Part shown: piece by piece, positions 36,506-59,468 of the stretch | Numbering within the stretch: the first letter of the stretch is position 1 | How the letters are laid out: every line of letters starts with the position of its first letter | Assembly: GCF_019797865.1 (NCBI RefSeq) | Contig: NZ_CP081869.1 | Location: 868,001 to 932,000, forward strand | Source of the DNA: Chenggangzhangella methanolivorans | GTDB taxonomy: Bacteria > Pseudomonadota > Alphaproteobacteria > Rhizobiales > Methylopilaceae | DNA: 64,000 nucleotides | Reading direction: 5' to 3' | The notes under the pieces: model-generated | Told to the model about the DNA's origin: nothing | What the model saw: only the letters and a program-made list of their open reading frames with translations | Databases searched by the model: none | Program-made: the position numbers and the translations under genes

Positions 36506-36658
<153 letters not shown>

Positions 36659-42696: not shown

Positions 42697-42829
42697 GACG
42701 GGCGTCTCCTCGGCACGATGGTTCGGCTTTCGCTGGAGAGTCGGGCGGGGCGCAGGGTCGAAGTGGCGTCCGCCGCCTGCGAAGCAAGCCGCGGGCCGCA
42801 GGCCCGGCCAGATCGTCCCGCCGCGCCGC

Positions 42830-53286: not shown

Positions 53287-53407
53287 ACTGCGTGCTTCGA
53301 GACGCCCGCCGATGGCGGGCTCCTCAGCATGAGGAAGGTTTGCAGACTTTCACGACGGTCCTCATGCTGAGGAGCGGCCTTTCGGCCGCGTCTCGAAGCA
53401 CGCAGTT
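53287..53407. repeat. Palindromic repeat family A, copy 2 (inverted pair)
   Basis: ACTGCGTGCTTCGAGACG ... CTCCTCAGCATGAGG (53287-53336) and CGGTCCTCATGCTGAGGAG ... GTCTCGAAGCACGCAGTT (53355-53407) face each other across 18 bp in the gap after the phospholipase D gene. Inner hairpins are GCCCGCCGATGGCGGGC and GCGGCCTTTCGGCCGC. Confidence 0.85.
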
Positions 53408-53497: not shown

Positions 53498-56157
53498 TTG
53501 GACGAATTCGGGCTGCTGATCCTGCTGGTGCTCGCCGTGCCCGTCATGGCGATCGCGGGGCTGACGCTCGGCCTTTCGGCCCGCCGGCGGATCGACACGC
53601 TCGAACGGCGCCTCGCAGCCCTCGAAAGCGCCTTCGCCCGCAAAGCCGCGGCCGAGCCGTCACCCCTCCCGTCGCAGGCGCCGCAGCCGGCCCCGGCGAC
53701 CGCGCAGGCGCCGCCCGCGCCGCCGCCGCCGCGTCGCCGCCGCGCATGTCCGTCCCACGCCCCCGGCGCCCAAGCCTGCGCCTCCCAAACCTGCGCCGCA
53801 AAAACCCGGGCGCTCGCTGGAGGAGCTCGTCGGCGCGCGCTGGAGCGTGATCGTCGGCGGGCTCGCGCTCGCGCTCGGCGGCATCTTCCTCGTCCGCTAT
53901 TCGATCGAACAGGGGCTGATAGGCCCCGCGGCGCGGATCACGCTCGGGGCGCTGTTCTCGGCCGGGCTGCTGGCGCTTGGCGAACGGCTTCGCCGCGCGG
54001 AAGGCTCCGGCCCCCGCAAGGCCATCGACATTCCCGCCGTCGTCACCTCGGCCGGCGCGACCAGCGCCTTCGCGACCGTCTACGCGGCCTATGCGCTCTA
54101 CGGCTTCCTGCCGCCGGCCGCCGCCTTCCTCGCGCTCGGGATCGTGGCGGTCGCGACGCTCGTCGCGGCCGTGCTGCACGGGCCGGTGCTCGGCGCGGCG
54201 GGCCTCATCGGCGCCTACGCCACCCCTCTCCTGGTCTCCTCCGACGAGCCCAACGCGATCGCGCTTTTCGCCTATCTCCTCGCGCCGACGGCCGCCGCCT
54301 TCGCGGTCGCGCGGATGCGGAACTGGCCGCCGCTCGCGCTCGCGGCGGGGATCGCGGCCTTCGCCTGGGGGCGCTTGCGGTTCTCGGCGGCCTCGCCGCC
54401 GGTTCGGGGCCGCTGCTGGCTTACGTGGTGGGGCTCATCGCGCTCGCCGCCGCGATGCATTCGGGCCTTTCCGCCAAGGCGCCCGAAGCCGCGGCGCCGG
54501 ACTGGATCAGCGGGCCCCTGATCGCCCTGTTCGCGCTGCTCGCGACCGCAGCGCCCGCGATCGACGGCTTCGGCGCCGCCACGCTCGCGGCGACCGGCGC
54601 GGTGATGCTGGCGCTGCTGGGCCTCGCGGCCTGGGCGCCGGGCCTTTCGCCGCTCGCCCCCGTCGGCGCGGTCCTCGCGGCGCTCGTCACGCTCTCCTTC
54701 GACGACGGCGCGCTCACCGCCATGGCCGAGGCCACGAGCCTTCCCGCCCCGGCGAGACGCCGCGCAGCGACGGGCTCGGCGGCTTCCTCGCCTTTTGCGG
54801 CGTCCTCGGCGCGGCGTTCCTCGCGGCCGGCGCGTTCGCGGCCCGCATCGCCTCCGCAAGCCCGGCGTGGCGAAGCGGCCTGCTGGCCGCCGCCGCCGCG
54901 GCCGCGCCGCTGCTCCTCATCGCGAGCGCCTACTGGCGTGTCGCCGAATTCGCGCCGGACCTGCGCTTCGCGGCGATCGCGGTGCTGGTCGCAGCCGCGC
55001 TCGCCGCGCTCACCGAAGACGCCGCCCGCCGCGAGCCCTCCGGCGCCGCGAGCCCCGCCGCGACCGCGGCCTACGCCACGGGCGCCTCCGCCGCGCTTGG
55101 CCTTGCGCTCGCCATGGCGATGCGCGACGGCGGGCTCACCGTCGCGCTGTCGTTCCTCGCCATGGCGCTCGGCCTCGTGGCGGCGCGCCGGAACATCCGC
55201 GCGCTCGGCTGGCTCGCGATCGTCGCGGCCGCGATCGTGCTGGTCCGCATCGGCGTCGACCCGCGAATCGTCGGCGACGACCTCGGGGACGACGCCGCTG
55301 TTCAACGCTCTGCTCTGGGGCTACGGCGCGCCCATGGTCGCGTTCTGGATCGGCGCGCGCGCCTTCGCCAAGGCCGGCCAACCCCTTCCCTCGCAGGCGC
55401 TCGAAGGCCTCAGCCTCGTGTTCGCGCTGCTCTTGAGCTTCATGCAGGCGCGCCATTTCGCCACCGGCGGCGAGGTCGCGACGCCGGGCGTCGGGATCCT
55501 GGAGGCGGGCCTCGACGCGACCGTCGCCTTCGCGCTGTCGGCGGCCGCCGGAAAAACTGTCGCTCGGCCGCGCTTCCCCCGTGCTGAACTGGGGCGCGGT
55601 GATCGCGGGCGGTCTCGGCGCCATCATCTCGGTCGTCGGCCTGCTGCTCGTCTCGAACCCGTTCTTCACCGGAGAGCCGGTCGAGGGCGGCGCGGTCTTC
55701 AACGCGCTGATCCGGCTACCTGCTGCCGGCGCTCGCAGCCTTCGCGGCGGCGCGCTTCGCCGGCGAGGGCCGCCCGGTCTGGCTGCGGCGGGCGCTCGGC
55801 GGCGCGGCGCTCGCGCTCGCCTTCGCGTTCCTCACGCTCTTCGTGCGCCGCGCCTTCGCGGGCCCCGAGCTCGACGGCCCGTTCGAGAGCGACGCCGAAT
55901 GGTACGTCTATTCCGCCGTCTGGCTCGTCTTCGCGCTCGCGCTTCTGACGGTCGGCGTCGTGCGGCGCTCGCAGACGCTGCGGCTCGCCTCGGCGCTCAT
56001 CGCCGTTCTGGTCGTGCTGAAGGTATTCCTGCTCGACCTCGCGGGCCTCGGCGGCGTCTGGCGCGCGGTCTCCTTCATCGGCCTCGGCGGCGTGCTGATC
56101 GGGGTCGGCCTCGTCTATCAGCGATTGTTGTTTCCAAAGCCCGCCGCCTCTGCATGA
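53498..56157 (+). CDS. DUF2339 polytopic membrane protein, frameshifted
   Basis: The product of about 886 residues is a large integral membrane protein of unknown function. It starts with a TTG (MDEFGLLILLVLAVPVMAIA), then a Pro/Ala-rich segment, and is followed by some twenty hydrophobic segments, such as SVIVGGLALALGGIFLVRYS, ALLATAAPAIDGFGAATLAA and LLSFMQARHFATGGEVATPG. The C-terminus WRAVSFIGLGGVLIGVGLVY is typical of DUF2339. Breaks near 53750, 54375, 54745, 55300, 55555 and 55725 spread it over three frames. The role is perhaps in the cell envelope, but no experimental function is known to me. Confidence 0.8.
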
Positions 56158-56226
56158 CTTGTGCCGAACAATCGGCTATGTGGCTTGCGGGGACGCAAGA
56201 CGACTTCTCACAAAACGGCTTGCTCG

Positions 56227-57127
56227 ATGCTTCAATGGGATGATTTCCGGCTGGTGAAGGCGATCTCCGAGCGGAGGTCGCTCGCCGGGGCCGCCGAGAT
56301 GCTCGGCGTCAACGCCTCGACCGTGTTCCGGCGCCTCGGGGCGCTCGAGGAACGGCTCGGCGCGCGCCTGTTCGAGCGCGGCCGCGCCGGCTACGGCCTG
56401 ACGCCGGCCGGCGACGAGATGTCGGCGATCGCCGACCGGATGGCGAACGACATCGTGTCGTTCGAGCGCCGGGTGCTCGGCCAGGACCTCGCGCCGACCG
56501 GCGAGCTGCGCGTCACCACCAACGACGGCCTGCTGATCCACGGCCTGACCGACGTGTTCGCGAGCTTCCGCCGCGCCTATCCCGAGATCACGCTCGACGT
56601 GGTGGTGGGCAACGCGGTGCTGAACCTCTCCAAGCGCGACGCCGACATCGCGCTGCGCGTCACCTCCTCGCCGCCCGAGACGCTGGTTGGCCGGCGCCTC
56701 GCCTCGATCTACTGGGCGGTCTACGGCCTCGCGCCGCTGAAGGAGGTCGACAGCATCGAGGCGCTCGACCACCTGCCCTGGATCGGCCCTGGCGACATGC
56801 TGGCGGCGCTGCAGCGCTGGCTCCGCGACGTGGTGGGCGAGCACAAGATGGTCTACCGCCTGAACACGGTGCTCGGCATGGCCGAGGCGATCGCGGCCGG
56901 CATCGGCGTCGGGCCGCTGCCCTGCTACATCGCCCACCGCTTCCCGAGCCTGGGTGCGGCTCTACGATCCGCCCGGCCAGCAGCCGCCGGGCCTGTGGAT
57001 CCTCACCCATCCCGACCTGCGCTCGAGCGCGCGCATCCGGGCGTTCATGGACCATGTCGGCCAGGAGCTCTCGAGGCGGCGCCCCTGCTTCGAGGGGATC
57101 AAGGAGCGCGAGCGCGAGCCGGCGTGA
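56227..57127 (+). CDS. LysR-family transcriptional regulator, one frameshift
   Basis: The product begins MLQWDDFRLVKAISERRSLA with the winged helix-turn-helix at AAEMLGVNASTVFRRLGALE. The effector domain reads GELRVTTNDGLLIHGLTDVF, DADIALRVTSSPPETLVGRR and LNTVLGMAEAIAAGIGVGPL. A break near 56953 (one extra G) is followed in the correct frame by VRLYDPPGQQPPGLWILTHP, ending FEGIKEREREPA at 57127. The length is about 300 residues. Effector and targets are unknown. The downstream gap holds the first palindromic repeat of the GIY-YIG region. Confidence 0.85.
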
Positions 57128-57143
57128 GGCGGGGCTGAGACGG

Positions 57144-57276
57144 ATCGCGTGCTTCGAGACGCCCGCCTTGCGGCGGGCTCCTCAGCATGAGGATCGTCGA
57201 GAGGCCGTAGTCGCAGAATGCATCTCGACGAACCTCATGCTGAGGAGGTCCGAAGGACCGTCTCGAAGCGCGCAGT
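57144..57276. repeat. Palindromic repeat family A, copy 3 (inverted pair)
   Basis: ATCGCGTGCTTCGAGACG ... CTCCTCAGCATGAGGATCGTCGA (57144-57200) and TCGACGAACCTCATGCTGAGG ... GTCTCGAAGCGCGCAGT (57225-57276). The second unit ends five bases from the stop of the GIY-YIG gene. Internal hairpins are GCCCGCCTTGCGGCGGGC and GGTCCGAAGGACC. Confidence 0.85.
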
Positions 57277-57281
57277 GCGCC

Positions 57282-57569
57282 TCAGCTGCGCGTTCGCGCG
57301 GCCAGCCTCGGCAACAGATCCAGACGTCCGGCGATCAAAGCTTCCTTCTTGGCGCGCGACCATCCCTTGATCTGGCGCTCGGCCGCGATCGCGTCCTCGA
57401 CGCGGACGAAACGCTCGGAGAAGACCAGCGCCACCGGCAGCCGCGCGGCGGTGTAGCCGCCGAAAGCGCCGCTCTGGTGCTCGGCGAGACGCTTCTCAAG
57501 CGCGCCGCGGGTGGAGCCCACATAGTAGGAGCCGTCGGAGCAGCGGAGGATGTAGATCCAGGCGTCCAT
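57282..57569 (-). CDS. Small GIY-YIG nuclease-domain protein (UPF0213-like) enclosed by repeats
   Basis: The intact 95-residue product starts MDAWIYILRCSDGSYYVGST (GIY-YIG elements IYIL and YYVG), then ALEKRLAEHQSGAFGGYTAA (Arg region) and DAIAAERQIKGWSRAKKEAL (catalytic-type Glu). It ends LPRLAARTRS. GIY-YIG proteins of this size are single-strand nicking nuclease-like, but most have no known function. The gene lies five bases from palindrome copy 3 and 12 bases from copy 4, with no room for an independent promoter of normal size. The open frame continues upstream through a repeat, but MDAW is the family start. Confidence 0.9.
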   Translation of the reverse strand: MDAWIYILRCSDGSYYVGSTRGALEKRLAEHQSGAFGGYTAARLPVALVFSERFVRVEDAIAAERQIKGWSRAKKEALIAGRLDLLPRLAARTRS

Positions 57570-57581
57570 GAGCGGAGACGG

Positions 57582-57760
57582 ACTGCGTGCTTCGAGACGC
57601 CCGCTTTGCGGGCTCCTCAGCATGAGGGCCGTCGAGGCGATTGGAAAGAGGCCGACCGGCTGTTGCTGAAAGAGAAAAGGCGGCGACCGATCAGAACTCC
57701 GACTCCAGCCTTCCTCATGCTGAGGAGGCTGCGAAGCAGCCGTCTCGAAGCACGCAGTTC
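57582..57760. repeat. Palindromic repeat family A, copy 4 (inverted pair, long spacer)
   Basis: ACTGCGTGCTTCGAGACG ... CTCCTCAGCATGAGGGCCGTCGAG (57582-57633) faces TTCCTCATGCTGAGGAGG ... GTCTCGAAGCACGCAGTTC (57709-57760) across 75 bp. It begins 12 bp upstream of the GIY-YIG start codon, so it covers the 5' end of that gene. Confidence 0.85.
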
Positions 57761-57787
57761 GCTTCAACCGCGATGCGACGGAGACGG

Positions 57788-57842
57788 ACTGCGTGCTTCG
57801 AGACGCCCGCTTTGAGGGTTCCTCAGCATGAGGACCGTCGAG
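57788..57842. repeat. Palindromic repeat family A, copy 5 (single unit)
   Basis: ACTGCGTGCTTCGAGACG ... TTCCTCAGCATGAGGACCGTCGAG is one unpaired unit. It repeats the opening of copy 4, including GAGACGG before it, in direct orientation, consistent with a tandem duplication. Confidence 0.8.
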
Positions 57843-57867
57843 ACGACTGAGACGAGAAAGAGCGCCC

Positions 57868-59468
57868 TCAGGCCGCCTGCTTGCGCACGTCCTTCACGTC
57901 GGTGAACTCGACGGTCTCCCAGCGCTCCTTGGCGCGTCCCATCTGGAACGCGGAGCCCGCCAGCAGCACCGGATCGCCGTCGAGGTCCTCGGCGAGGCTC
58001 GAGCGGTTGGCGGCGAGGAAATCCTCGAGCGTCTTGCGGTCCGGCGCCGTAATCCAGCGCGCGATCGAGTACTGGCTCTGCTCGAAGCCGACCTCGAGGC
58101 CGTATTCCGCCAGGAGGCGCCCCGTCAGCACGTCGAGCTGCAGCGCGCCGACGACGCGACGAGGGCGGGCGAGCCGTCGAACGGGCGGAACACCTGCACC
58201 ACCCCCTCCTCCGCGAGCTCCTGCAGCGCGGACTTGAGCTTCTTGGCCTTCATCGCGTCCTCGAGCCGCACGCGGCGCAGGATCTCGGGCGCGAAGCTCG
58301 GCACGCCGAGGAAGCTGATGTCCTCGCCCTCGGTCAGCGTGTCGCCGATGCGAAGCGCGCCGTGGTTCGGGATGCCGACCACGTCGCCGGCGTAGGCCTC
58401 CTCGGCGAGCTGGCGGTCCTGCGCGAAGAAGAACTGCGGCGCATGAAGGCCGATCATCTTCTGGGTGCGGGTCTGCCTGGCCTTCATGCCGCGCGTGAGC
58501 TTGCCCGAAATGAGCCGCACGAAGGCGATGCGGTCGCGGTGGTTAGGGTCCATGTTGGCCTGGACCTTGAACACGAAGGCGGTCATGCGCGGCTCTTCCG
58601 GCGCGACCGCTCGCTTGTCGGCGTCGAGACCCTGCGGCGACGGCGCGAGATCGGCGAGCGCGTCCAGCAGGTCGCGGACGCCGAAGTTCCGGAGCGCCGA
58701 GCCGAACAGCACCGGCGTCAGGTGGCCCTCGCGGAACGAGGCCATCTCGAAGGCCTTCAGCGCGCCCTGCGCGAGTTCGAGCTCGTCGGTGACCTCCGCG
58801 AGCCGGTGCTCGTTCACCAGCCCCTTCAGCGCGCCCAGGCCCTCGCCCGCGCTCTCGTCGCCGCCGTCGACGAGGCGGATGCGGCCGGTCTTCAGCTCGA
58901 AGGTGCCGGCGAACTCCTTGCCGCGGCCGATCGGCCAGGTGAGCGGCGCGACGTCGAGCGCGAGCGTCTGCTCGATCTCGTCCAGAATCTCGAACGGGTC
59001 GCGGCTCTCGCGGTCCATCTTGTTGACGAAGGTCACGATCGGGATGTCGCGCAGGCGGCAGACCTCGAACAGCTTTCGGGTGCGCTCCTCGATGCCCTTG
59101 GCGGCGTCGATGACCATCACGGCGGAATCGACCGCGGTGAGGGTGCGGTAGGTGTCTTCCGAGAAGTCCTCGTGGCCCGGCGTGTCGAGCAGGTTGAACA
59201 CGCAGTCGCGGTACTCGAAGGTCATCACCGAGGTGACGACCGAGATGCCGCGGTCGCGCTCGATCGCCATCCAGTCGGAGCGCGTGCGGCGGCGCTCGCC
59301 CTTGGCCTTCACCTGGCCGGCGAGCTGGATCGCCCCGCCGAACATCAGGAGCTTCTCGGTCAGCGTCGTCTTGCCGGCGTCAGGATGCGAGATGATCGCG
59401 AAGGTGCGGCGGCGTTCGACCTCGCGCGACAGCGGAGACGGGGCGGACGGGGAAGCGACTTCGGTCAT
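57868..59468 (-). CDS. prfC: Peptide chain release factor 3, one frameshift
   Basis: RF3 is the GTPase that recycles class I release factors from the ribosome. The G domain shows FAIISHPDAGKTTLTEKLL (P loop), DRGISVVTSVMTFEYRDCVF (switch I), LLDTPGHEDFSEDTYRTL (G3) and VTFVNKMDRESRDPFEILDE (G4). LRIGDTLTEGEDISFLGVPS lies in domain II. A break near 58152 is followed by VLTGRLLAEYGLEVGFEQSQ and a normal end (FTDVKDVRKQAA). The full length is about 533 residues. The shift falls inside a conserved region, so it is probably an assembly error. Confidence 0.93.

Follow-up and report, generated by a model that had tools for sequence, protein, structure and literature searches.

Bacterial genomes commonly contain dispersed palindromes, many families of which are not known to have a partner enzyme. 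According to a 2025 study in Nature Communications, GIY-YIG nucleases named Ssn reportedly cut single-stranded DNA at cognate repeats, first in Neisseria. The Neisseria repeat is said to be present in hundreds of copies, and Ssn reportedly affects transformation. In the RAYT (TnpA-REP) systems, with their REP, REPIN and BIME sequences, the enzyme gene is bracketed by a dispersed palindrome, often in the form of inverted dimers, the repeats occur also without the gene, and the types of gene and repeat match (see PMC3733652). For REPs with the CGTC tag, no dedicated transposase was reported (Di Nocera et al. 2013, PMC3733652).

The window considered here is a stretch of 64,000 nucleotides that extends from base 868001 to base 932000 in an assembly of 5.54 Mb, which consists of a single contig and has a listed completeness of 88%. 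A gene on its minus strand (57282-57569, ATG at 57569) encodes a GIY-YIG endonuclease of 95 amino acids containing the full PF01541 domain; it belongs to the genes called group B below. Together with the surrounding hairpin repeats it forms an insert (57139-57867) between the stop codons of two genes which we take to be a LysR-type gene (ending at 57138) and prfC (ending at 57868); the names mfd and dsbA used below are likewise our own assignments. Both neighbors (56161-57138 and 57868-59468) are apparently frame-shifted compared to the congeners, prfC being split between two ORFs that overlap. A further gene, at about 53498-56157, is possibly broken as well. These defects may reflect either indels in the assembly or decay.

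All elements described at this locus in the sequence-only reading are present. At the 3' end of the gene, units 1 (57149-57192, plus strand) and 2 (57233-57271, minus strand) form an inverted dimer (57144-57276), predicted to fold into one large hairpin of -58.6 kcal/mol with DNA parameters. At the 5' end, unit 3 (57587-57627, plus strand), which adjoins the gene start, and its inverted mate, unit 4 (57713-57753, minus strand), form a second dimer (57579-57761) with a predicted fold of -62.2 kcal/mol. Unit 5 (57793-57833, plus strand, in a region near 57785-57842) is single and has a weaker inner hairpin. The distances of 5 and 12 bases between the gene and the two dimers are as originally given. 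The repeats at 36.5 and 53.3 kb, assigned by the same reading to the same family, indeed belong to it: both are dimers without a gene, one with the tails inward (36511-36621) and the other with the tails outward (53292-53401). All four dimers are predicted to form large hairpins, with energies between -54 and -62 kcal/mol (DNA parameters). A run of GA dinucleotides (approximately 36628-36656) directly adjoins the dimer at 36.5 kb.

The unit consists of an outer stem, a TC bulge, a GAG/CTC stem, a small internal loop, a variable hairpin and a TGAGG tail; unit 1 reads TGCT-TC-GAG-AC-hairpin-TC-CTC-AGCA followed by the tail. The core alone can also fold, as seen in the predicted fold of unit 2. 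In a set of 212 distinct units, the two bases in front of CTTCGAG each form a pair with a base of the CCTCANNNTGAGG core. The first of these outer-stem pairs is C-G in 168 units and G-C in 42, and the next one is T-A in 175 and C-G in 23. In 198 of the 212 units the two pairs are both Watson-Crick, compared to a mean of 105 and a maximum of 127 in 1000 shufflings. This covariation shows the unit to be a single bulged hairpin in which the changes are compensatory. A perfect stem of 5 or more is found in the inner hairpin of 144 of the 212 units, and arms of at least 4 occur in 76 distinct versions. No Rfam family scored above its gathering threshold in the region 56900-58100.

The core with at most three mismatches has 10 matches in the window (mean 1.94 and largest value 5 in shuffled sequences), one of which, at 42706 with three mismatches, is probably due to chance. 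Across the genome the TCCTCANNNTGAGGA core occurs 110 times and its reversed control never. The whole-unit pattern, CTTCGAG followed after 10 to 38 bases by CCTCANNNTGAGG, has 181 matches (93+88), again with none for the control. Outside the window, cores of the TCC- and TGC-types alternate in G000 (C1 65138-65524) with a period of approximately 186 bp, apparently forming a tandem array, and a unit pair (L006 1941-2043) starts approximately 217 bp past the GIY-YIG match in uvrC of G000.

The flanking of small GIY-YIG genes by repeats is group-specific. It was analyzed in 186 distinct loci, left from 217 after removal of two without a match (uvrC and L007), one that was too short (L035) and 28 duplicates. 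Loci were assigned to clade A, group B or the UPF0213 type by the best tblastn score and not by the tree. Units were recognized by the pattern xxxTTCGA-N3..46-CTCAx'x'x' within 400 bp of the gene. Among the group-B loci, which were fetched by protein similarity, 112 of 123 carry TTCGA/CTCA units, 76 of them on both sides. Thus the genes do not lie at random with respect to the repeats, and the specific partnership of nuclease and repeat proposed in the earlier reading is borne out. Clade-A genes have TTCGA/CTCA units at 0 of 57 loci and are flanked instead by CGTC-tagged repeats at 43 of these loci, on both sides at 32. Neither family was found at any of the six UPF0213-type loci, and the label 'UPF0213-like' attached earlier to the genes of interest was therefore too loose.

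By these patterns, no unit was seen at 11 of the 123 B loci and no CGTC repeat at 14 of the 57 A loci. Six B loci with TTCGA/CTCA units on both sides are matched on one side by the loose CGTC pattern as well, and the clade-A locus L222 has a B unit by an older, looser pattern and none by the later one. Four group-B loci (L245, L249, L251 and L252) have similar left and right flanks (scores 32-103) and no unit recognized by the pattern; these flanks possibly represent a further repeat family. At ten loci (L093, L094, L095, L126, L140, L144, L146, L148, L150, L152), three of which are listed as sphingomonads, the unit has the short TTCGACARGCTCA form or is close to it. This form seems to us to resemble a very widespread intergenic repeat, whose partner enzyme may be the present GIY-YIG group.

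The first version of the unit pattern missed variants and left 16 of 102 B loci bare, a number that fell to six after widening. Since the motif was widened on these 102 loci, a cleaner test is provided by 20 loci fetched after it had been fixed. Units flank 15 of them, on both sides at 11, with 0 distal units. Of these 20 loci, 18 come from outside the order and three from outside the class, two of the latter being flanked. The set is what remained of 26 new loci after exclusion of six that re-fetched earlier genes; some listed matches yielded no locus.

The units are concentrated close to the genes. In the best 80 of 563 loci, ranked by protein-profile similarity, the sequence up to 350 bp from the gene (54,498 bp in total) contains 191 units, and the sequence beyond 1 kb (287,970 bp) contains 11. 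In the same best 80 of 563 loci, the left and right 400-bp flanks are similar (score of at least 30) for 55 of 77 genes versus 9 of 2359 control positions, three loci having too little flank for the comparison. In the window and 20-kb surroundings, this test was passed by 17 of 20 small GIY-YIG genes and by 70 of 3220 control positions, and uvrC failed it; neither uvrC nor the 439-aa GIY-YIG ORF of G000 has any similarity between its left and right flanks. The score of the gene itself is also reached by a few control positions: one of 146 near L003, eight of 147 near L004 and three of 146 near G238. A pure chance association was rejected on these flank-similarity controls together with the counts of 112/123 versus 0/57 and 0/6.

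The 95-aa protein is a minimal GIY-YIG domain. Its only Pfam match is PF01541 (E 1.4e-15), and it does not conform to the definition of HUH (Y1) tyrosine transposases. Residues Y6, Y16, G18, R27, H31 and E64 are invariant in 34 sequences and include those presumed to be catalytic. The AlphaFold2 model is confident (pLDDT 91.3). The nearest solved structures, both by sequence and by fold, are the UPF0213 proteins 1zg2 and 1ywl, which we take to be of the YhbQ type. Weaker fold matches (E 0.02-0.19) involve Slx1, a nuclease of branched DNA, and this likeness of the model would be compatible with hairpin cutting. Matches to the protein were found in 4 records of the plasmid collection and in 21 of the phage collection, all of the latter below 60% identity.

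In the protein tree (150 proteins, 93 columns), which leaves many forks unresolved and omits the clade-A loci L207 and L221 and further loci of one query, a branch with support 100 separates clade A from all other rows. The six UPF0213 rows group together on a starred branch of their own, which has a long stem and contains no B rows. As this branch arises from among the B rows, B is called a group and not a clade. Within both sets the similarity of repeats follows that of proteins: in the Mantel test, none of 999 permutations reached the observed correlation for clade A (r 0.45, 35 loci) or for group B (r 0.181, 86 loci), the latter lying only just above 0.175, the highest of the permuted values. 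Where two clade-A proteins are at least 70% identical, they have a repeat in common (mean similarity 0.89, 17 pairs), and clade-A genes from one genome have different repeats (similarity 0.05-0.48, 7 pairs). The four other small GIY-YIG genes of the source genome are flanked by repeats that differ from those in the window. CGTC-tagged palindromes were recognized beside three of them, and the repeat of L003 is a related-looking palindrome not matched by the pattern.

Gene presence and repeat number co-vary within families. A match was accepted as the gene when its E value did not exceed 2.6e-20; 11 genomes whose matches fell short of this were treated as lacking it. By this measure, the close gene is present in 26 of the 297 genomes of the order, 24 of which have units; at least one unit occurs in 50 of the other 271. 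A Fisher test of gene against repeat ignores kinship, and thus a test stratified by family was preferred. In 12 families, comprising 26 genomes with the gene and 103 without, the gene bearers have more units, an excess equaled in 0 of 20000 permutations. Hence the link between repeat number and gene presence, on which the earlier interpretation depended, holds within families, with family f35 running against it. In all eight genomes that represent genus g36 of this family in the order sample (G035, G112, G143, G171, G194, G216, G253 and G270), the close gene is absent and the number of units ranges from 14 to 89; a ninth genome, G643, has both gene and units. These units may have persisted after loss of the gene, or else a more distant gene may serve them. 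Four congeners of the source genome also lack the close gene and have 20-87 units. The gene is single in 23 of the 26 gene-bearing genomes of the order and present in two copies in 9 of the 28 genomes of the phylum sample.

The sites of the gene differ among congeners. In the genus group of 13 genomes it is present in three (G000, G193 and G297), each time in different surroundings and each time with units beside it. The gene of G297 (L071 1250-2050) has no 5' part and retains units on both sides; apparently it is a decaying copy. A comparison for empty sites was suggested in the sequence-only reading, and such sites were found: in the four of 12 congeners where both the LysR-type gene and prfC border the junction, gene and units are absent. 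In the other eight the LysR-type neighbor was not found within the stretch fetched. The two neighbors nearly touch each other in G111 and are separated by approximately 500 bp of other DNA in G298. No target duplication or exact junction was readable in the comparison of the window junction with the congeners, and horizontal transfer with recombination between repeats would look identical to transposition.

The site after mfd, occupied by the gene in G193, lacks the gene in the corresponding stretches of all 12 other genomes and lacks units in ten. G142 has an uninterrupted unit pair there and G170 has one unit, both without the gene; thus repeats can occur at this site in its absence. The dsbA neighbor was found in only two of the 12 stretches, with 687 bp (G111) and 525 bp (G269) of other DNA in between, which makes this a weaker empty-site comparison than the window junction.

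These observations probably reflect a REP-associated GIY-YIG nuclease module, in which an endonuclease specific for both structure and sequence acts on the REP hairpins belonging to it, in the manner of RAYT/REP systems but with an unrelated enzyme. The partnership itself is observed, whereas the cutting and the mobility are what such a module would be expected to do. The small protein would be the endonuclease, and its substrate would be its own repeat unit, either single-stranded or extruded. The features recognized would be those of the bulged hairpin: the conserved TTCGA...CTCA, the covarying outer stem, the variable inner hairpin and the 3' tail. If units or inverted dimers were nicked in the course of replication, repair or DNA uptake, this would favor their copying and recombination. 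These processes in turn would scatter the repeats and occasionally relocate the gene, which is bracketed by two units. Thus, from the earlier proposal of an autonomous mobile unit, with the lone pairs as putative non-autonomous copies, the partnership of nuclease and repeat stands, and a simple autonomous transposon is disfavored: the gene is mostly single-copy, units exist in genomes without the close gene, and there are gene-less units beside mfd.

One alternative, which we find unlikely but worth serious attention, is that the protein serves the host. Similar to Ssn, it would be a site-specific single-strand nuclease that controls DNA uptake or recombination by cutting incoming strands at the repeats and has no part in their spread. 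The conserved catalytic residues and the repeats adjoining the gene fit this explanation equally well, and there is the reported precedent in Neisseria of a GIY-YIG enzyme cutting single strands at a high-copy repeat. However, host use alone explains neither the position of the gene between units nor its differing sites in the congeners.

A rather improbable alternative is homing: as a selfish, free-standing element, the gene would have landed in pre-existing repeat dimers, the repeats having spread by other means. Homing agrees with the orientation of the nearest two units, which are mutually inverted at 43 of 57 two-sided B loci (and also at 24 of 28 A loci), and with the situation just after mfd, where the uninterrupted pair of G142, in a stretch in which the dsbA neighbor was not found, can be set against the units and gene of G193. 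On the other hand, a homing gene would not make the number of repeats follow its presence within families, or their sequence track protein similarity. Moreover, it would leave dozens of intact targets in the same genome, and the window site in the four congeners has no repeats to land in.

Finally, it is hardly credible that the repeats simply collect in intergenic gaps where small GIY-YIG genes happen to lie: units do occur beside ordinary genes (at one of 12 congener prfC loci, at two of the 12 mfd loci from genomes other than G193, and past uvrC in G000), and at the clade-A locus L004 the score of the gene is reached by eight of 147 control positions, but such a hot spot would explain neither the absence of units from the other GIY-YIG groups (0/57 and 0/6 versus 112/123), nor the different repeat family of clade A in the same genomes, nor the excess of flank similarity at the genes of the best 80 of 563 loci (55/77 versus 9/2359).

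If the module interpretation is extended to both sets of genes, GIY-YIG enzymes would form a second class of REP-processing and REP-spreading enzymes, independent of RAYT, with clade A acting on CGTC repeats, another group acting on TTCGA/CTCA repeats, and each gene type having its own hairpin. We suggest this tentatively, as a possibility that falls somewhat short of being probable. Were it true, a partner enzyme would be identifiable for many of the palindromes interspersed in the genomes of Alphaproteobacteria and other taxa. Already, two repeat superfamilies can be assigned from flanking sequence to groups of small GIY-YIG genes. With CGTC REPs assigned to clade A, one can directly test which agent cuts or moves them, using a protein of approximately 95-100 residues and a short hairpin. 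The loci also provide many candidate pairs of nuclease and site, which could serve as tools for single-strand cutting.

Of the known systems, the UPF0213/YhbQ proteins (1zg2, 1ywl) are the closest solved relatives of the 95-aa protein, but, unlike it, they form their own branch and have repeats at 0 of 6 loci. The similarity to Ssn, as reportedly described, lies in the combination of a small GIY-YIG nuclease with a cognate high-copy repeat situated around the gene and across the genome; the repeat in the window is of the TTCGA/CTCA type. If Ssn is as reported, the kind of system is already known, and the present group is a further one with its own repeat superfamily. Among the matches listed in the literature search, no paper ties GIY-YIG genes to REPs, and 'GIY' is not mentioned in the text of PMC3733652. 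The CGTC REPs, as described there, have the same tag, stem and CCA-like tail as the repeats flanking clade-A genes of the source genome and other genomes, and this flanking bears on the 2013 statement that they have no dedicated transposase (PMC3733652). The window unit is not of the CGTC type, as the units do not show the set of features by which such REPs are recognized (the CGTC tag, a stem of 8-9 bp starting with AT, and the CCA-like tail). Compared to RAYT/REP systems, the enzyme is a GIY-YIG protein and not an HUH tyrosine transposase, the units have the TTCGA...CTCA consensus and the TGAGG tail in place of the GTAG tag, and mobilization is only presumed. The arrangement is nevertheless the same: the enzyme gene is bracketed by a dispersed palindrome, often in inverted dimers (on both sides at 76 and on any side at 112 of the 123 B loci), the repeats occur also without the gene, and gene and repeat types match.
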